Assembly: GCA_015660865.1 (NCBI GenBank)
Contig: JACTUA010000001.1
Span: forward strand, 450,304-514,303
DNA: 64,000 nt
Source of the DNA: Methanomicrobiales archaeon
GTDB taxonomy: Archaea; Halobacteriota; Methanomicrobia; Methanomicrobiales; JACTUA01
Direction: 5' to 3'
Below the pieces are notes generated by a model, which worked only from the letters and a program-made list of their open reading frames with translations, was not told the DNA's origin and ran no database searches. Position numbers and translations under genes: made by a program. Positions 4,917-14,876 of this stretch are shown piece by piece (position 1 is the first letter of the stretch; every line of letters begins with the position of its first letter).

Positions 4917-5490
4917 AGAGTGCCGACATAATCTCCGACTTCATCAGTTCCTTTGCCCGTTGTAGCCTCGACTCGATGGTGTTGAAGACCAACAGACGTT
5001 CATCAGCGGTGGTGGCATTCAGCCCCCCCAGGGTGGTGAGATCGGGAACGACCTCACAATTCCGCTGCATCTCTTTGAGGATCTCCCTGCAGAGCTGCTC
5101 GTCACGGGGATCGATATGCAGCCTGACATCTTCCCCCTCGAGCTCTTCCGTCGCCTCGCTTACCATCTTCTTAAACGATGCCCGGTACCCGGGGTTATTC
5201 CTCGCCAACGCCATCTGCTGTGCAGCCCGGGTAAAAACCTGCTGGAAGAGGTCATCCTTCACCCTGGCAAGGGCCATCCTCTTCTCGGCCCCGGCCTTGG
5301 AGATGAGCTTGCTCCTCTCCAGCTTAACACCCCGGGCTGCCTCCTCAAGGTATACCGAGCGGGTGCTCTGTGCCCTCTCCTCTGCATCCTTCCGGATCTT
5401 CTGTGCCTCTGCCTGCGCCCGATCCTGGATCTCCTTGATCCTCTCCTGGGCGCCCGCCTTCACGGCCGAGATTAGGTCCTCATACGGCAT
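4906..5490 (-). CDS. atpE: A-type ATP synthase subunit E (peripheral stalk)
   Basis: Peripheral-stalk subunit E (194 aa), which pairs with subunit H to form the right-handed coiled-coil stator. Residues about 10-100 form an alanine-, glutamate- and arginine-rich helix. The globular C-terminus (VVPDLTTLGGLNATTADERL, then FNTIESRL) is the family hallmark. A GGTGGATCC ribosome binding site lies directly before ATG 5490. The 107-nt gap to atpK is the widest after the K-I gap and may allow separate expression control. Confidence 0.94.
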   Translation of the reverse strand: MPYEDLISAVKAGAQERIKEIQDRAQAEAQKIRKDAEERAQSTRSVYLEEAARGVKLERSKLISKAGAEKRMALARVKDDLFQQVFTRAAQQMALARNNPGYRASFKKMVSEATEELEGEDVRLHIDPRDEQLCREILKEMQRNCEVVPDLTTLGGLNATTADERLLVFNTIESRLQRAKELMKSEIMSALYGD

Positions 5491-5597
5491 GGATCCACCA
5501 ATCTGTTACAGCGATGCTCGTTCCTCCACGGCCAGCTTCCACGCCCTCTGGCACGTGAGAGGTGTGAGAGTCCCGCAACGCGAATGTTCCCGCCCGC

Positions 5598-5816
5598 TCA
5601 TTTCAGCATGATGATCATCATGGCTGAAACCACAAATCCCAGAATGACGAGCGTTTCAGGGATCGCCACAAGGACGACCATGTAGCCGAACGTCTCCGGC
5701 CTCTCCGCAATGGTTCCGGCTCCTGCTGATCCGATCTTGGATTGTGCAAATCCTGTTCCGACCGCACCAAGGCCGAAGGCGATTCCTGCCCCGATGGGTA
5801 TTCCCCAGTCTACCAT
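5598..5816 (-). CDS. atpK: A-type ATP synthase proteolipid (c-ring) subunit K
   Basis: Proteolipid of the membrane rotor: 72 aa with two transmembrane hairpin helices. The ion-binding carboxylate is Glu54 in VAIPETLVILGF, and helix 1 carries a Gln (Q25 in GTGFAQSKIG) at a position that in relatives contributes to ion coordination. Two helices per monomer is the simple form, unlike the fused proteolipids of some methanogens. A strong GGGTGAT ribosome binding site and its own TATA box (see promoter entry) suggest extra expression to satisfy the multi-copy ring. Confidence 0.95.
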   Translation of the reverse strand: MVDWGIPIGAGIAFGLGAVGTGFAQSKIGSAGAGTIAERPETFGYMVVLVAIPETLVILGFVVSAMMIIMLK

Positions 5817-5854
5817 AGTTCACATCACCCACTTTTACTCCGGGATATCGTAAT

Positions 5855-5868
5855 GCTATATATTAAAC
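5855..5868 (-). promoter_or_regulatory. Internal promoter upstream of atpK
   Basis: On the minus strand this reads TTTAATATATAGC, a good archaeal TATA box. It would start transcription about 26 nt downstream, near 5835, leaving a leader of about 20 nt that contains GGGTGATGT immediately before the atpK ATG at 5816. It sits in the 243-nt gap between atpI and atpK, the largest gap in the operon. Confidence 0.5.
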
Positions 5869-5975
5869 TTGCTCAACTTGTTTTATTACGTGCTTCATTC
5901 TTCGTAGGCGCCCTCGTGGCTTCGATGAATCTTGTCCGATCCTCCTCCCAGGAAGGTCATATCACCATCACGACC

Positions 5976-5998
5976 CCCTTTAAGAGAGAGAGAAAGGG
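5976..5998. other. Dyad in the atpI-atpK gap
   Basis: CCCTTT (5976-5981) and AAAGGG (5993-5998) form a 6-bp inverted repeat around a GA-rich loop in the 243-nt spacer between atpI and atpK. It could form an mRNA hairpin that attenuates read-through or marks an RNA-processing site. Otherwise the spacer holds only the atpK promoter, and no ORF is credible there. Confidence 0.3.
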
Positions 5999-6059
5999 CG
6001 ATCCGGACCTCTGGTTGCTATCCTCCCTGCCATCGCGGGTGGGTATGCCGGAGGTGCAC

Positions 6060-7988
6060 CTATTCATTTTTTCCTTCCATGCTCTTCTTGAACGGGGAAT
6101 ACAGGGTGCCGCCACCCTCGAAGAACTTGGAGTGGAACTCCACCGCATGGAGACGGAAGGAATGGAGAAAGGGACTGAACATGGCAAGAATAATGTTCAG
6201 GATGTGTAGCATCGCCGCAATGAGGATCCCGACGATCAGCACATCCATCGAGCCCCCCAGCGTATTTGCGACGAGCGCGAGGACCACGGAGGCCATGCCG
6301 ATGGCCATGATACGGGCGTATGAAAGGATGTTGCCCACCGTTGACATGATCTCGAATACCCCGAAGAATCCGCCCCCATAGACGATGAGGGGGACCCCCA
6401 CGAGGATCAGGACAATCCCCAGGTTCACCAGTATCCCGGGGATGATGCCTGTCATCGCAACGATGGTAACGAGCAGGCCCGTTATGGCGATGATCATCCC
6501 GCACTTGTCGCACACATGGTGCCTGTCTCCCTTCGTCAGTGCATTCAGGACTCCGATGGAGAGGCCGAGGAAGACGTGGAAGACCCCGATGGCGATGGCG
6601 AGGATGAGGAGGGGGATCATTGCGTCGATCCGGTTCCATGTGATCCCCAGGAAGGTCATCGGGTGGATCCAGCCCATCATCTCCCCGAAATTCCCGAAGA
6701 ATTCCCCGAACAGGAAGCCAAAGAAGATGCTCGGAATAGACGAGATGGCCAGGATATTCATCAAGTACTGGAGCCACTCATACATTCTATACTTCCGCTT
6801 CACGACGGTCGCAAAGGCAAGGATGATCAGGCCGTAGGCGATATCGCCCACCATGAGGCCAAAGAAAATGGGAAAGAAGAGGGCGATGAGCGGGCTCGGG
6901 TCCACCTCACGATACTTCGGCGGGCTGATTAGCTGGATCAGGGATTCAAAGGGTTTAACGAACCAGGGGTTATCGTAGAATGTGGGCGCCGCGTTCATCT
7001 TATCGGCCGGCACATCGATCTCGTTCACGATGACCCGCGCCCCGAAGGTATCGGCGAGAGCCTTCTTTGTCTTTTGTACGTACTTCTTCGGGACCCATCC
7101 CATGATCACGAAGGTATACTCCGTTTGCCCGAATTTTGAAAAGACGCTTAATTCCGCGTTCCTGTCCTCTAGAATCCTTTGTAATACAATCAGTTCTTGG
7201 TACCAGGTTGTCGCGAGATTCTGCAGGTGCTCATCGATGGCAGCAATCTCCTTTCCAGCCTCCTTCCTCCGCTCTCCTATGAGCGTCAGGATCTCATGGA
7301 AGGGCTTGCCCATGTACTCAGAGGGCAGGCGCACCTCGTTGACGTTCTGGGAGAAGATAAAGGAATGGACCTGCTCTGAGTATCGTTTGTTGAAGATGAG
7401 TACCGTGGCGAGGGTGGTCGCGTCCACGTCGGCTGAGATGAGCTCGAACTGGTTTTTCGTGATCTCCCTCAATGCGGCCTGGATATACTCGAGCACCTCC
7501 CGGAACTCCTTCTGGACCAGGAGGACGGTGACCTCAAATCCCTCCAGCACAGGAAGCTGGCTCTCCAGCGGCTGGATCTTCTCGATGATCTTCTCGTAGC
7601 GCGAGAGAGATCCGAGGTTTAATTCCAGATCGCTCTTCTTCGTGGCCAAGTCGCGGGTCGTGGACTCGAGCTGGTCAATCAACTGGTTTGCCCTCGAGGT
7701 CAGCTCCTCGGGGTTCTTTCTCTGGAGATCCTCGCCAAGACGCACCTGCTCCCCCGCATCGCCCTTGGTCTTCGGCAATGCGAGGATGATGCCGCCGATC
7801 TTCGCGAGCAATGTGGCTGTCTCGCCCCCCTTCACCATCTCAAGCCGCCTGAGGATCGTGTCGCCGGGAGTGATGGTCTTGGAGATGTCTTCCAGGTGGA
7901 CGGTGCCGGTGTGGTACAGGATATCCACTACCGTCTGCAGGTCCGTCTTCGGCCCAACCACCTGAACTTTGGTCATCTTCTGAAGCAT
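6060..7988 (-). CDS. atpI: A-type ATP synthase membrane subunit I/a
   Basis: Subunit I (a), 642 aa, holds the stator half-channels for ion flow across the membrane. Residues about 1-330 form the cytoplasmic coiled-coil and globular arm that anchors the E/H peripheral stalks. About 360-640 form the multi-helix membrane domain (PIFFGLMVGDIAYG, several hydrophobic segments, then ILSYARIMAIGMASV and LHSFRLHAVEFHSKFFEGGG). It starts 2 nt after the subunit H stop. Confidence 0.96.
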   Translation of the reverse strand: MLQKMTKVQVVGPKTDLQTVVDILYHTGTVHLEDISKTITPGDTILRRLEMVKGGETATLLAKIGGIILALPKTKGDAGEQVRLGEDLQRKNPEELTSRANQLIDQLESTTRDLATKKSDLELNLGSLSRYEKIIEKIQPLESQLPVLEGFEVTVLLVQKEFREVLEYIQAALREITKNQFELISADVDATTLATVLIFNKRYSEQVHSFIFSQNVNEVRLPSEYMGKPFHEILTLIGERRKEAGKEIAAIDEHLQNLATTWYQELIVLQRILEDRNAELSVFSKFGQTEYTFVIMGWVPKKYVQKTKKALADTFGARVIVNEIDVPADKMNAAPTFYDNPWFVKPFESLIQLISPPKYREVDPSPLIALFFPIFFGLMVGDIAYGLIILAFATVVKRKYRMYEWLQYLMNILAISSIPSIFFGFLFGEFFGNFGEMMGWIHPMTFLGITWNRIDAMIPLLILAIAIGVFHVFLGLSIGVLNALTKGDRHHVCDKCGMIIAITGLLVTIVAMTGIIPGILVNLGIVLILVGVPLIVYGGGFFGVFEIMSTVGNILSYARIMAIGMASVVLALVANTLGGSMDVLIVGILIAAMLHILNIILAMFSPFLHSFRLHAVEFHSKFFEGGGTLYSPFKKSMEGKNE

Positions 7989-8671: not shown

Positions 8672-9148
8672 CTAATGAGTTATCTCCCTGACCGCGCGCC
8701 CATCCAGGTACCCGATCCTAATCCCCGGAGGAACCCCCTCCAGCTCCACCCCGTCATCAGATCCCCTGAGGGTGATCCCTGCGAGTTCCCCCGACGAGCA
8801 GAGGAGGTGCTGGCCCGGGTGGGTCCCCCGGCGGATGCTGCAGGAGAGCCGAAGGGATTCGGCTACGGACACGACCAGCGAGAGCCTCTCCGACCCCGGA
8901 TGATCCTTCGGGAGGACGAGGAGGGGGAGGTGGTACCGCCGCACGAGTTCGAGGAGCATCCTCGCCGGCTCGATATCTCCCCCCTCGGGCGCTGAGACAA
9001 CCACGAGGTCATCGGGATGCACCTTCTCGCAGGATTCGCCCTCAAAGGTCTCGATGAAGAGGTTGAAATCCGAGAGTGCCCTCCCCGCGAGGAGAAAAGA
9101 GTGATCCCCCTGGACGAGGAGGACCCGGTCGCCGAGGGGGTACCTCAT
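8672..9148 (-). CDS. Conserved-looking protein of unknown function
   Basis: 158 aa (MRYPLGDRVLLVQGDHSFLL), soluble, no membrane segment. The middle alternates beta-type segments and helices (DLVVVSAPEGGDIEPARMLL, then YHLPLLVLPKDH), which suggests a small alpha/beta fold, followed by a beta-rich C-terminus. I do not recognise the family. It overlaps the zinc-ribbon gene upstream by ATGA, so the two are probably co-expressed. Codon use matches the neighbourhood. Confidence 0.7.
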   Translation of the reverse strand: MRYPLGDRVLLVQGDHSFLLAGRALSDFNLFIETFEGESCEKVHPDDLVVVSAPEGGDIEPARMLLELVRRYHLPLLVLPKDHPGSERLSLVVSVAESLRLSCSIRRGTHPGQHLLCSSGELAGITLRGSDDGVELEGVPPGIRIGYLDGRAVREITH

Positions 9149-9446: not shown

Positions 9447-11366
9447 TCAGATGATCATATTGAAAACGACGAGGGCGATGATGAGGAGGATGCAGACATG
9501 CTTTACCCCTGCCGTCAGGGACCCCTCTCCCATGTGACCTGCGAGGAGGCCTGAGAAGAGTCCCTGGATGAGGGTTGCGTGATAGATGAGAAGGCGGAAC
9601 GTATCAATACTCAGCATTTGGGTTCCGATCAATCCGCCCCGTGAGCTCATTGTCTGTACTCCCCCTTTCAGGAGGATGGGAAGGAACTGGGTGACGATAA
9701 CCCCGACCACGAAGACGAAGACCACGAAGGCGAGGTAGATGATGGCGAGGTAGATGAGCATGGAGGTTGTGCGTTCGCGCTTCAGGATCTCACCCATCCT
9801 TGCGTCGCTCGCCGCGATCTTGAGGACCTCCCCGATATCCCCGCTCATGTAGCTCGCCTTGGTGATGAGGGTGACGGTCCTCGCGATGGAGGGGGTCCGG
9901 ATCCGGTGCTCGAACCTCATCAGAGCCTCCTCGACATTGGCCCCCCAGTCCATATCCCTCTTGATCCTCTTGATCTCGTACGAGAGGATCCCGAGGTTCG
10001 TTCTCACCATGATGCCGAGCCCCTGGGCGATGGTGAGCCCCACCTCCTGAATTCCGGACATCCGGTCGAGGAACTCGGGGATGGCCGCCTCGATTCCCAT
10101 CACCTTGCGTTTCCAGAGCTGGTAGAAGATAGCAAAGGGGATGAGGACGATGAGACCTGCGATGACAAGGTGGTCATCCAGGACCATCACCTTCATCTGG
10201 AGGTCCAGGTTATAGGGAACCGCGAACAGGGCAAGGACAAAGTAGATGATCGCGATGGGTATGGTGACATAGAAGGTGCGGACGGGGATGAGGATAAAGG
10301 CGTTGAAGGGATTTCTCAGGAAGTCCCTGAACCTTCGGATCCGGTCGTAGAAAGCCAGCTGGGCGAACTGCGCCTCATCACCCACCCTCTTGAGCACCTG
10401 GACATCGAAGAACTCGTGGAGGAGTTTGGACTTCACGTAGCGCTCGATCCCCTCCATCTTCTCTGATATCATGGAGAGGAAGACGATGAAGAGGACGGAG
10501 CCTATGGGAATGACCCCATAGCAGACCACCGAGAGGGCGGTGAGCCCCATCCCCCCGATGAGCCCCATGACCACCATGATGATGATGAGGAAGAGAGGGC
10601 CCGCTACAAAGAGGGTCACGTAGGTCTCGGCCACGAACTCGAGGGTCGTGATAAACTGCTTCAGCTCGAACCGCGCCTCCTCCTGGTACGTGCGAACCCT
10701 GCCCGAGAAGAACTCCCCCATGCCTGCGCCGCTGTCGATGACCGAGAGGAGATCCTGGATGAAGTCGCGGAACTTCTCTGACGGGGTCGTCTCGCCCAGG
10801 TGCTTGAGGGCGGTGATCAGGTCATAGCCGAAATAGTCCACATCCCGGACGAACTGCATGAACTCCACGGCCACCTCCCCGAAGATGCTCGCATTGTCCG
10901 CAAGGGATGCGAAGATTTTGGTGAGCTCTGCGCCCCCCCTCTGCATGGCATACATGTAGGCAACGGCGCTGTGGAGGGTGAGGTTGATCCTGGTGGTCCG
11001 GTGCTTCTTCAGGAGGGCGGGAAAACCCGTCATCACCTTGTAGCCGAGGATCGACCCGGCGACAAAGGCGGTAAGGGTCACTCCGCCCTTGAAGAGGAGG
11101 ATGGGGACGGCCTGCGGGAAGATCCGGTTCGCCCCGAAGACATCGTAGATCCGGGACGAGACCTCGAGGGTTGCGATGAGATCCGCGGTGATGAAACCCG
11201 CAAAGGCACAGAAGATGCCCGAGAGGATGGTGATGACATAGGTCTGGAAGAGGTAGTGCTCGATGGTGACGCCGGACCGCGCCGAGACGAGATCGTTGTG
11301 GAGCCAGGCGTACGTATCCCGCCGCGCCCTGATCCAGTCGGAGACGAACGCCTTTGCGGTCATCAC
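9447..11366 (-). CDS. Archaellum/type IV pilus membrane assembly protein (ArlJ/TadC-like)
   Basis: 639 aa polytopic membrane protein of the T2SF/TadC superfamily, the platform on which the hexameric ATPase drives filament assembly. Two T2SF-like units are separated by membrane helices (about residues 40-130, 250-310, 370-440, 540-630), and the conserved pattern ITALKHLGETTPSEKFRDFIQDLLS is visible. It is somewhat longer than I expect for ArlJ. Start GTG 11366 or ATG 11363 adjoins the ATPase stop (TGATG). No archaellin or pilin genes are in the window, so archaellum versus adhesion pilus stays open. Confidence 0.85.
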   Translation of the reverse strand: MMTAKAFVSDWIRARRDTYAWLHNDLVSARSGVTIEHYLFQTYVITILSGIFCAFAGFITADLIATLEVSSRIYDVFGANRIFPQAVPILLFKGGVTLTAFVAGSILGYKVMTGFPALLKKHRTTRINLTLHSAVAYMYAMQRGGAELTKIFASLADNASIFGEVAVEFMQFVRDVDYFGYDLITALKHLGETTPSEKFRDFIQDLLSVIDSGAGMGEFFSGRVRTYQEEARFELKQFITTLEFVAETYVTLFVAGPLFLIIIMVVMGLIGGMGLTALSVVCYGVIPIGSVLFIVFLSMISEKMEGIERYVKSKLLHEFFDVQVLKRVGDEAQFAQLAFYDRIRRFRDFLRNPFNAFILIPVRTFYVTIPIAIIYFVLALFAVPYNLDLQMKVMVLDDHLVIAGLIVLIPFAIFYQLWKRKVMGIEAAIPEFLDRMSGIQEVGLTIAQGLGIMVRTNLGILSYEIKRIKRDMDWGANVEEALMRFEHRIRTPSIARTVTLITKASYMSGDIGEVLKIAASDARMGEILKRERTTSMLIYLAIIYLAFVVFVFVVGVIVTQFLPILLKGGVQTMSSRGGLIGTQMLSIDTFRLLIYHATLIQGLFSGLLAGHMGEGSLTAGVKHVCILLIIALVVFNMII

Positions 11367-12979
11367 ATCAGCCTGCGGAGATCACCCAGGTTCTCCATGA
11401 CCTCGTCGGGCTTGATGGCGTAGGACTGGAAGATCTGGGAGACGGAGATGTAGTCCTTCACGCCCTGCTCCTTCATGGCAAGGAGGATCTTCCCCCGCTT
11501 CAGGATCTCCTTCTCCAGGTCTTCCGTGTTCCAGCCCCTTGACGCCATGATCTCGTTGTAGACCTGGGACCTCCCCGAGAAGGAGAAGGTATCAGAGACC
11601 GGGTCGTACGAGAAGACGGTGTTCACCTGGATGTTCTGGGTCGCCTGGTCGAGCCCCATGATCTCTACTATTTCCTGACACTTCCTCACCCGCTCCGTCC
11701 CCCGGTAGATGAGGGCCTGGATGGAGACGATGTCCAGGGCCTGGAGCATGGTCCTCGGGACAGAGAGGGGCTCGTTCTCCAGCCGGTGAATGGCGGAATC
11801 CACGTCGGCAGCGTGGAGGGTGGAGAAGGTGGTGTGGCCGGTGTTCATGGCCTGGAAGAGGGTCTGGGCCTCGGGGCCCCTCACCTCGCCCACGATCAGG
11901 TACTCGGGCCGCTGGCGCATGGCAGCCCTCAGGAGGTCGAACATGCTGATGGCTCCGGAGCTTCCGTCGATCACGGCGTCCCGTGTGACCGACGCGATCC
12001 AGTTGTCATGGTTCAGGGTGATCTCCCGGGTATCCTCGATGGAGACTACCTTGGCAAGGGGCGGGATGAAGTGTGATACCGCGTTTAACGAGGTGGTCTT
12101 CCCGGAGGCGGTTCCGCCGATGAAGAGGAGGCTCTTGTTGTTCTCGATGGCAAGCCAGAAGTAGGCCATGGCGTCCACCGGGAAGGTCCCGCGCTCGAGG
12201 AGCTCGATGGGGGTGAAGGGCTCCTCACGGAACTTCCGGATAGAGAAGGAGGTCCCGCGGCTCGTCACCACGGTGGAGAAGGTGAGCTGGAGCCGCGAGC
12301 CGTCCGGGAGGGTTGCGTCAAGGATGGGAGACCCGACAGAGATGTGCTTCCCAGAACGCTGGGCAAGGGTGATGGCAAGGGAGTCCAGGTGATCTTCATC
12401 AAAGACGATATTCGTCTTGATGTTGTGGTACCTCCTGTGGTAGAGGAAGAGGGGGATATTCACCCCGTCGCAGGAGATATCTTCGATCTGGGGGTCCTTC
12501 ATGAGGGCTTCGATCCGCGACCATCCCAGGAAGTTCCTGACGAGGTAATACTGGAGCCGGAAGAGGGACGGGAGATCGATGGCAACCCCGTACTCACCGA
12601 TGAGTTCCTCTACGAGGGAGAGGAGGATCTGTTTTTTGTCCCCGCGGATCTCCTCCTCGTTGAGGAGGAGGACGTCCCGCAGGTCTTCGTAAAGCCGTTC
12701 AAGGAGCTCGTATTCAAAGGGCGAGAGGGGGGGTTCGAAGAGGATGTACTCGTTCTGGTGGTTCTTCTCGTTGAGCGCGATGCAGATGAGGGAGAGCCCC
12801 CGCTCGATCCAGTAGACGTCCACGACCTCGAAGCCTGGCTTCAGGTCGGGCGTCACCAGGATGCCGTGGCGGTCAGGGTCATAGACCTTCTCGCTCTCGC
12901 GCCATACCCCGATTCGCTTGCCAAAGAGACGGTAGGCGTCTTTAAGTCGCAGACGCCTCAAAACCTCTGGAAGCTGCAT
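11363..12979 (-). CDS. Archaellum/type IV pilus assembly ATPase (ArlI/GspE-like)
   Basis: Secretion-superfamily ATPase of about 538 aa. The N-terminal regulatory domain is followed by the ATPase core with P-loop GGTASGKTT (about residues 288-296 from ATG 12979), Walker B region KVVSIEDTREI, and YLIVGEVRGPEAQTLFQAMNTGHTTFSTLHA. A longer frame opens at ATG 13033, but the TATA box TATTTATAG just upstream would place transcription start inside that extension, so the internal ATG 12979 (MQLPEVLRRLRL) is preferred. Operon with the J-like protein downstream. Confidence 0.88.
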   Translation of the reverse strand: MQLPEVLRRLRLKDAYRLFGKRIGVWRESEKVYDPDRHGILVTPDLKPGFEVVDVYWIERGLSLICIALNEKNHQNEYILFEPPLSPFEYELLERLYEDLRDVLLLNEEEIRGDKKQILLSLVEELIGEYGVAIDLPSLFRLQYYLVRNFLGWSRIEALMKDPQIEDISCDGVNIPLFLYHRRYHNIKTNIVFDEDHLDSLAITLAQRSGKHISVGSPILDATLPDGSRLQLTFSTVVTSRGTSFSIRKFREEPFTPIELLERGTFPVDAMAYFWLAIENNKSLLFIGGTASGKTTSLNAVSHFIPPLAKVVSIEDTREITLNHDNWIASVTRDAVIDGSSGAISMFDLLRAAMRQRPEYLIVGEVRGPEAQTLFQAMNTGHTTFSTLHAADVDSAIHRLENEPLSVPRTMLQALDIVSIQALIYRGTERVRKCQEIVEIMGLDQATQNIQVNTVFSYDPVSDTFSFSGRSQVYNEIMASRGWNTEDLEKEILKRGKILLAMKEQGVKDYISVSQIFQSYAIKPDEVMENLGDLRRLM

Positions 12980-13041
12980 GCCGGATCCTGAAACGGGGGG
13001 AAGGAACCCATCTCCCCCGAGACCAATAAACATTTTGTTGA

Positions 13042-13056
13042 TACGCTATAAATATT
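13042..13056 (-). promoter_or_regulatory. Promoter of the arlI-arlJ-like pair
   Basis: The minus strand reads AAATATTTATAGCG, a TATA box. A start about 26 nt downstream lies near 13025, giving a leader of about 45 nt to ATG 12979. The same spacer serves the divergent KaiC-like gene at 13144; TTATATTTTAGC near 13089-13100 on the plus strand is a candidate for that direction. Confidence 0.45.
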
Positions 13057-13143
13057 TTCTCTTTGAGACTTCATTCAACATTGAGTTTGATTATATTTTA
13101 GCACAATCTTTTAATGCTTTGCGGGAAAATACTCTCCTGATCT

Positions 13144-14049
13144 ATGGCAGTACAGATATCCGGGAGGATGCCCACGGGCATCAGCTCCCTTGATCCGGTG
13201 CTCGACGGCGGGATCCCCCCGGGATCGGTCGTCCTCCTCGAAGGGGAGATCGGGGCCGGGAGCCAGGAGTTTGTCTACACTTCCCTCATCTACCTCTCGA
13301 TGCTCAAGCAGAGACAGGATGCTGGCCCGGGAGCCAGGATCCCGGATAACATCAGCTACATAACATTCACCCGGATAAAGGAGGATATCCTCTCTGAGAT
13401 CGGGCTCTCTTTTGCGCCTAACCTGACCCAGCACCTGAACGGCTCTCTCAATTTCTCGGACCTCTCCACCCACTACTTCGACTCGAGTGTGGTCCCGTCT
13501 GACTGGTATTGCCTCGACGGCAGTGAGGAATGCGAGAAGAAGCGGAATGCAGGCCCTGAGAAGGTGCTTGCCGAACTCTCCACCCATATGTCGCACGGAC
13601 GGAAGAATACCCTTCTCCAGCTCCTCTATGTCACCCTTTCCCTCGCCAATCCTAAGAAAGGGAAGAAGGGAGAGGGGACCAGCCTTGTCATCCTGGACTC
13701 CCTCACCGACCTCGCCACCCAGTACTCGGAGCCCGAGCGGTGGAAGGAGCTCACCGCCTTCCTCCGGGGGCTCCAGCGGGTGACAAAGACCTGGAACTCC
13801 ACCATCTACCTCCTTCTCACAAAGGGCGTCCTCGAACCCTCCCGGGAGAAGGAGATCGCCGACTGCGTGGACGCGGTCGTCCTCTTCGGGTGGGAGGAGA
13901 CCGTTGCCCAGCGGCGACAGCGGACCATGTTCTTCCAGAAGTTCCGGGGGGTCATGCCCCACCTCGAGGAGCGGGACCTGGTCAAGTTCGCGGTCCGGAT
14001 CTCCCCGGGGAGCGGCTTTGAGGTCTCCAACATCCGGGTGGTGGTGTGA
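13144..14049 (+). CDS. KaiC/RecA-superfamily ATPase-like protein with degenerate P-loop
   Basis: 301 aa, KaiC/ArlH-like fold: TGISSLDPVLDGGIPPGSVVL leads into the nucleotide site, and TSLVILDSLTDLA resembles Walker B. The Walker A is GEIGAGSQE at 34-42, where the invariant Lys and Thr/Ser are lost. The Glu expected after strand 2 is replaced (TFTRIKED), so ATP hydrolysis is unlikely. The middle (about 105-165) holds an insertion. It overlaps the intact KaiC-like gene downstream by GTGA, suggesting an inactive/active partner pair. Similar proteins are annotated 'HTR-like' in archaea. Confidence 0.8.
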   Translation: MAVQISGRMPTGISSLDPVLDGGIPPGSVVLLEGEIGAGSQEFVYTSLIYLSMLKQRQDAGPGARIPDNISYITFTRIKEDILSEIGLSFAPNLTQHLNGSLNFSDLSTHYFDSSVVPSDWYCLDGSEECEKKRNAGPEKVLAELSTHMSHGRKNTLLQLLYVTLSLANPKKGKKGEGTSLVILDSLTDLATQYSEPERWKELTAFLRGLQRVTKTWNSTIYLLLTKGVLEPSREKEIADCVDAVVLFGWEETVAQRRQRTMFFQKFRGVMPHLEERDLVKFAVRISPGSGFEVSNIRVVV

Positions 14050-14747
14050 GCACCTCCCGGGTGACCATGGGGATCGAGGGGCTCGACGCGATGCTCGAGG
14101 GAGGCCTCATCAATCCCTCCATCTGCGCCCTCATCGGGACCTACGGGACGGGGAAGACCACCCTGGGCATCCAGTTCATCGCCGAGGGTCTCCTCAAGAA
14201 GGAGAAGTGCATCTACATCAGCCTGGACGAACGGGTGGACATGATCCAGGGGATCATGAAGCAGCGGGGCTGGGATGTGGCACCCTACGTGAACAAGTCC
14301 CTCTTCGTGATCAAGCTCGACCCGACGAACTTCAACCTCATGATCAACAGCATCAAGGAGGAGCTCTTCGAGCTGATCGAGAAGACAGGGGCCACCCGGG
14401 TCGTCATCGACCCTATCTCCCTCTTCGAGGGGACCTTCTCGAGCTCCGTGGACCGCCGGCTCGAGCTCATCCGGTTCATCGAGATGATGCGGGACCAGCC
14501 CTGCACCCTCCTCATGACGAGCGAGACCGAGTCGAACAACCCCCTCATGAGCCGCTACGGGCTCATCGAGTACCTGGTCGACACGGTCATCCTTCTCCGC
14601 TATTACCGGCCCGCGGACATGATGACGCCCGTCCACCTTGCCGTTGAGGTGGTGAAGATGCGCCAGTCCAAGCACTCCCGGGAGATCAAGCCCTTTGAGA
14701 TCTTACAGGACCAGATCCTTGTTTACTCTGGGGCCAACGTCTTCTAA
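14046..14747 (+). CDS. KaiC-domain ATPase
   Basis: 233 aa single-domain KaiC/RecA-like ATPase. Walker A GTYGTGKTT at residues 31-39 is intact, SLDER gives the catalytic acidic residue, and ATRVVIDPISLF is Walker B. GTG start overlaps the upstream stop (GTGA). It pairs with the degenerate paralogue and lies divergent from the ArlI/ArlJ-like genes; ArlH of the archaellum motor is the same superfamily, so a role in motor assembly or switching is plausible but unproven. Fragments matching its last 20 codons follow downstream. Confidence 0.85.
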   Translation: MSTSRVTMGIEGLDAMLEGGLINPSICALIGTYGTGKTTLGIQFIAEGLLKKEKCIYISLDERVDMIQGIMKQRGWDVAPYVNKSLFVIKLDPTNFNLMINSIKEELFELIEKTGATRVVIDPISLFEGTFSSSVDRRLELIRFIEMMRDQPCTLLMTSETESNNPLMSRYGLIEYLVDTVILLRYYRPADMMTPVHLAVEVVKMRQSKHSREIKPFEILQDQILVYSGANVF

Positions 14748-14766: not shown

Positions 14767-14876
14767 AAGGCCTTTGAGATCCTCCAGGACCGGATCCTCG
14801 TCCACTCAGGCGCGAACGTCTTCTGAACAGTGTATCCAATCGGGTGAAGGCCTTCACGAGATCCTCAAGGACCACC
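14767..14876 (+). pseudogene. Remnants of KaiC-type gene 3' ends
   Basis: 14767-14826 translates KAFEILQDRILVHSGANVF-stop, matching the C-terminus of the gene just upstream (KPFEILQDQILVYSGANVF-stop, ending 14747). Most base differences are silent, so the source was probably a diverged coding paralogue. A third, frameshifted piece at 14847-14876 reads KAF...EILKDH. Both pieces follow a GGGTGAAGGCC string. No start or upstream domain is present. The rest of the gap to pmbA holds nothing I recognise. Confidence 0.65.

Follow-up and report, generated by a model that had tools for sequence, protein, structure and literature searches.

A KaiC-fold protein whose ATP site is inactivated is retained with a live KaiC partner across Halobacteriota and usually stands beside a type IV pilus motor in methanogens

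ArlH (FlaH) is a KaiC-family protein that stands beside an ArlI-type ATPase and binds ATP; FlaH does not hydrolyse it, yet it stimulates FlaI about twofold at 1:1 (PMC6011876). RecA-fold subunits can also assemble without consensus P-loops, as in the hetero-hexamer Elp456 (PMC11050213). It has further been proposed that inactivated KaiC homologues (iKaiC) act in archaeal signalling (Makarova, Galperin and Koonin 2017, cited in PMC5847659), and KaiC ATPases of arCOG01172/01173 have been placed in type IV pilus (T4P) loci of Methanomicrobia (Makarova et al. 2016, PMC4858521). Here we analyse a gene pair, KaiX and KaiC2, in a 64,000-nucleotide stretch of DNA (the window) from a Methanomicrobiales archaeon, where a KaiC-fold protein with a dead ATP site is coupled to a live KaiC ATPase. 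The genome is of Methanomicrobiales type, 1.94 Mb in size, and the pair lies on contig C6. The features of the pair are the following:

13144-14049, plus strand: KaiX, KaiC-fold protein with inactivated ATP site, 301 aa; PF06745, 35.3 bits (cut-off 26.6)
13243-13269, plus strand: degenerate P-loop GEIGAGSQE of KaiX, residues 34-42, Lys replaced by Ser, acid at 42 (73-sequence conservation)
13360-13374, plus strand: ITFTR of KaiX after beta-2, in place of KaiC2 ISLDE, catalytic acidic pair lost (73-sequence conservation)
13684-13701, plus strand: Walker B LVILDS kept in KaiX, D185 and S186 in 73/73
13915-13947, plus strand: retained trans-acting finger region of KaiX, R258-Q-R260...K266-F-R268 (conservation and KaiC alignment)
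14046-14747, plus strand: KaiC2, KaiC ATPase of 233 aa with a single domain, KaiC_arch_3 family; TIGR03880, 294.5 bits (cut-off 249.45)
14136-14162, plus strand: P-loop GTYGTGKTT, intact in KaiC2; K37 in 66/70, replaced by R in four, all of genus g18
14226-14231, plus strand: acidic pair D61-E62 of KaiC2; E62 in 59/70
14655-14663, plus strand: K-M-R motif of KaiC2, K204 and R206; both in 68/68 sequences with residues there

Both proteins belong to the KaiC superfamily, KaiC2 scoring 161.7 bits against Pfam KaiC PF06745 (cut-off 26.6). TIGR03880 (KaiC_arch_3), which we take to be the AF_0351 family, includes KaiC2; this family covers one live protein, and a constant dead partner is no part of it. 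KaiX reaches 19.9 bits against TIGR03880 and is not a member, and an NCBIfam profile scan placed it in no family above cut-off. Neither protein is an ArlH, since the ArlH profile NF052589 (cut-off 215) gives 35 bits with KaiX and 30.7 bits with KaiC2; ArlH is, moreover, a single gene with a P-loop lysine. With Elongator Elp4/5/6 (PAXNEB), a RecA-fold hetero-hexamer, KaiX shares the degenerate P-loop, matching PAXNEB at 21.7 bits, below cut-off; Elongator, however, serves eukaryotic tRNA modification and has no live KaiC partner of the KaiC2 type. Judged by its KaiC fold and lost ATP-site residues, KaiX is an iKaiC, and it differs from the iKaiC proteins, as far as these are presented through the citing paper, in forming a single defined clade that has the same live partner throughout the phylum. 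The KaiC ATPases of arCOG01172/01173 are possibly KaiX and KaiC2 themselves; the accessible part of PMC4858521 mentions neither a dead P-loop nor an obligate pair, and KaiX and KaiC2 are divergent from the motor rather than in one operon with it.

The dead site is uniform among orthologues. The original prediction had read from the open reading frames a KaiX with GEIGAGSQE and no catalytic acid, an intact KaiC2 and a GTGA overlap, and all of these are present: the frames share 4 nt, with the start GTG at 14046 and the stop TGA at 14047-14049. Conservation was counted over 73 KaiX and 70 KaiC2 sequences sampled across Halobacteriota. The Walker lysine is missing from every KaiX, which thus lacks the GxxxxGK(T/S) of a functional ATPase, and a search of the order and the phylum for a lysine-bearing copy returned 0/73, so the dead site is conserved and the original prediction withstands its refuting condition of a restored lysine; recent loss of the lysine or a sequencing error is ruled out by the same count. 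This uniform absence and the gene order kept in other families of the order put the observation well outside what chance would give. Two positions past the lysine site, at position 42, an acidic residue (E/D) stands in 72/73. All 73 have T, S, K or I at position 76, and the residue after it is mostly R or K, being acidic (D) in four. The Walker B aspartate is common to KaiX and KaiC2, and G37, G39, D185, S186, W250 and R260 of KaiX are invariant (73/73). It could be argued from the invariant D185, G37 and G39 that KaiX still binds or hydrolyses nucleotide through a non-canonical loop. We consider this very unlikely, given that no sequence has the lysine, that 72/73 carry an acid in the loop and that the acidic pair at the catalytic position is gone.

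KaiX sequences of the phylum form a single clade (SH-aLRT 99), thus placing the inactivation at the ancestor of the clade. The tree favours neither a derivation of KaiX from ArlH nor one from KaiC2: KaiX has a long stem, and the RadA outgroup and an ArlH row that was probably misread (H_L193) stand on long branches. KaiX is under purifying selection: its dN/dS between close pairs is 0.05-0.24, comparable to that of KaiC2 and the motor ATPase, and this together with the phylum-wide conservation rules out a decaying pseudogene. This conservation suggests that KaiX is retained for a role other than ATP hydrolysis. Because the pair is kept together across all of the phylum, and in methanogens mostly next to a pilus motor, KaiX probably works as a regulatory subunit and is no gene in decay.

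The evidence for a partnership comes from the distribution. In 393 Halobacteriota genomes, with thresholds of E <= 1e-10 for KaiX and E <= 1e-50 for KaiC2, KaiX was found in 191 and KaiC2 in 177, all 177 of which carry both. KaiC2 never occurs without KaiX, and KaiX occurs without KaiC2 in 14 genomes. Nine of these 14 belong to genus g18; each of the five g18 genomes examined has a diverged KaiC2 adjoining KaiX, and the single one scanned passes the TIGR03880 cut-off. Haloarchaeal, f9 and other KaiC2 orthologues also lie above this cut-off, which 1 of 14 control genomes passed. Within Methanomicrobiales, 43 of 61 relatives have KaiX orthologues, and most orthologous loci keep the 4-bp overlap. 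Most loci examined outside g18 also share the order motor operon, KaiX-KaiC2, PmbA-TldD-LonB, which is kept in loci from other families of the order. The co-occurrence across the phylum and the gene overlap support an obligate partnership of KaiX and KaiC2, as far as genome content can tell. An alternative is that KaiX acts alone, for example as a motor-bound homo-oligomer, and is merely co-regulated with KaiC2; the two genes are unlinked in Halobacteria, and KaiX sequences match the ArlH profile weakly, at 35 to 47 bits with the cut-off at 215. That no genome has KaiC2 without KaiX, and that the genes adjoin and overlap in most loci of the order, make this alternative improbable.

Next to the pair lies a second operon on the opposite strand, with these features:

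11363-13033, minus strand: T2SSE/VirB11-family secretion ATPase, type IV pilus motor, ArlI-like; PF00437, 125.7 bits
9447-11366, minus strand: T2SSF/TadC platform protein, ArlJ-like membrane protein; PF00482, 102.7 bits
8672-9148, minus strand: uncharacterised ORF of 158 aa downstream of the motor genes, with matches in most Methanomicrobiales loci
13034-13143: 110 bp of intergenic DNA separating the divergent motor operon and pair, containing AT-rich, TATA-like tracts

The predicted divergence of the pair from motor genes is thus confirmed. The ATPase scores 390.8 bits against the ArlI family NF058587 (cut-off 550) and is a T2SSE/T4P ATPase, not ArlI; with PilB3_C PF23989 it shares a likeness only, at 21.8 bits against a cut-off of 27. 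In the 61 Methanomicrobiales relatives, where a score of 554 bits or more was taken as the orthologous level, the motor ATPase is present in 43 of the 43 genomes with KaiX and in none of the 18 without it, some of these 18 being incomplete. This answers the co-occurrence check that had been proposed with ArlI/ArlJ-like genes and, within the order, supports the suggested link to a filament motor. In three g18 genomes the motor lies elsewhere, and the tree joins its ATPase to the linked orthologues at 99 to 100. Several further families outside the order also have the pair in divergent orientation to a motor operon (L103-L108, L110, L112, L113, L119). The losses recur over several families and genera, which reduces the problem of relatedness in this co-occurrence and does not remove it.

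The flanking motor is not the archaellum. The original prediction called these genes ArlI/ArlJ-like, which holds as homology and fails as an assignment to the archaellum, the real operon of which, with its own ArlH, ArlI and ArlJ, is on contig C9 (L069), apart from the pair. KaiX and KaiC2 are not part of that operon, and its ArlH has an intact P-loop, GEHDSGKS, with the lysine kept. Membership of the KaiC family and the adjoining ArlI/ArlJ homologues would speak for a regulator of the archaellum motor after the model of ArlH. Yet ArlH is missing from six near-complete genomes that have the pair (G030, G032, G035, G045, G050, G055) and present in 16 of the 18 Methanomicrobiales genomes that lack it. 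The archaellum-specific reading that the ArlH comparison in the original prediction suggests is therefore not sustained; we regard a role of the pair as the archaellum switch as scarcely credible and reject it on the separate operon and the distribution of ArlH.

Our preferred reading, to which we would give somewhat less than an even chance, is an obligate hetero-oligomeric KaiX-KaiC2 ring that controls the type IV pilus motor, with the dead subunit shaping the ATP sites of its partner. In KaiC, ATP is held between subunits, where the neighbouring subunit contacts it through the basic residues of the K-x-R motif. The KaiX profile segment rRqRvmyiekFrg pairs with RRRTIEILKFRG of KaiC 8zn5, R260 is kept in 73/73, K266 in 56/73 and R268 in 58/73, and one or both of the latter positions are basic in all 73; KFR is the form in most methanogens. 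We propose the following mechanism. KaiX and KaiC2 would assemble as obligate partners into a KaiC/RecA-type ring, in which ATP binding and hydrolysis would be confined to KaiC2. KaiX has lost its own ATP site, yet its scaffold, the aspartate of Walker B and the basic residues of the finger (R260, K266/R268) are retained. Because these KaiC-type residues are kept, the fingers of KaiX may reach the site of the neighbouring subunit, and KaiX probably completes or gates, in trans, the active site of KaiC2. The ring of methanogens may then act on the adjacent PilB/ArlI-type ATPase, much as the ArlH ring does on ArlI, and so determine when the pilus motor runs. The hetero-oligomer, the finger donation, the docking on the motor and the effect on pili are what we infer from sequence.

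Several observations weigh against this mechanism. KaiX and KaiC2 still co-occur in Halobacteria, where they lie far apart and unlinked to the motor, and family f9 has the pair without an adjacent motor. The fingers are partial in the same groups, being (Q/E)FR in Halobacteria, with the K lost, and K without R in f9. Close motor homologues are widespread without KaiX across the phylum, for example in family f8. The co-occurrence counts are not phylogenetically independent, and the Fisher test on them ignores phylogeny, so that its value is not to be taken for a probability. AlphaFold, run from two sequences, gave KaiX a pLDDT of 39.9, too poor for interface modelling; KaiC2 reached 60.8. At the phylum level, motor co-occurrence is uninformative because close paralogues score equally high: the motor ATPase has matches at E 1e-193 in 303/393 genomes, paralogues included.

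The cases away from the motor allow another reading, in which the pair is a KaiC-hub type of switch for signalling in general, KaiX is the inactive adaptor of KaiC2, and the motor is one of several outputs or a shared regulatory neighbourhood. Inactivated KaiC homologues in signalling are, as cited in PMC5847659, an established proposal. The haloarchaeal KaiC2 gene is, moreover, divergent from an ATP-NAD kinase gene, next to which the published position of Haloferax cirB lies; cirB is reported to affect the light-dependent expression of other cir genes (PMC3941300). Owing to this shared synteny, KaiC2 is probably the CirB family. Against a general switch stand the exact match between pair and motor in what Methanomicrobiales have lost and kept, unlinked cases included, and the divergent adjacency repeated in other families, so that we consider it a possible explanation, if a doubtful one. 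About as doubtful is the widest form of our proposal: an archaellum-independent, ArlH-like ring throughout the phylum, with alternating live and dead KaiC subunits, the dead one donating fingers in trans, which would switch T4P motors and of which the haloarchaeal live half would be CirB, hitherto studied without its dead partner.

Other features of these loci deserve mention. The intergenic region 13034-13143 is a putative promoter region; a sigma-70/terminator scan, with models ill-suited to archaea, gave no match. The ORF at 8672-9148, which belongs to no family in Pfam, NCBIfam or PHROGs, is a candidate further component of the system. KaiX of the window carries an insert just ahead of the Walker B strand:

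13609-13680, plus strand: 24-residue insert of KaiX, residues 156-179, TLLQLLYVTLSLANPKKGKKGEGT (alignment of 32 orthologues)

Among the aligned orthologues it is seen in the window copy only, the sole contig of the same genus stopping short of this position. The 3' end of KaiC2 (14688-14745) is repeated after the stop in a 58-nt copy at 14767-14824, with 83% identity, which still encodes KAFEILQDRILVHSGANVF-stop; a third, shorter fragment lies at 14858-14873, and these repeats are perhaps the remnant of a tandem duplication.

The pair also varies between lineages. In g18 (family f6, L064-L068), KaiC2 has GTGRT in place of GTGKT and no acidic pair, and both members look degenerate by their motifs; these genomes also lack ArlH, and KaiX of G045 (g18) is interrupted by an in-frame TGA. 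Most genomes of family f1, to which the window genome itself belongs, have neither pair nor motor (G002, G004-G010), including the near-complete G005 and G006; the window genome and two others keep both, and several of the remaining genomes are incomplete. Haloarchaeal KaiX (L123-L136) adjoins genes for a GHMP kinase/beta-RFAP synthase-like protein, an unassigned coiled-coil-like protein and a TFIIS zinc-ribbon protein rather than a pilus motor. In some f9 genomes (L148), KaiX and KaiC2 are accompanied by two extra genes, 4943-5503 and 5478-6368, both on the minus strand. They encode a KaiC ATPase of divergent sequence and a degenerate protein resembling DUF835/DUF7504, and may be another live/dead pair.

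The association of KaiC with T4P loci and the existence of inactivated KaiC homologues are already published. In the literature searched we found no account of the fixed live/dead pairing, its phylum-wide spread, its independence of the archaellum or its exact co-retention with one motor; Makarova 2017 may list the family and may already describe the pairing, and our claim to novelty is therefore moderate.

KaiC-like proteins are the proposed main signalling hubs of archaea, and few have assigned partners. The fixed live/dead pair offers a defined complex to purify, and it ties signalling by KaiC to a type IV pilus motor that is not the archaellum. For the haloarchaeal CirB it also points to a second partner gene, one open to deletion in an organism with tractable genetics.
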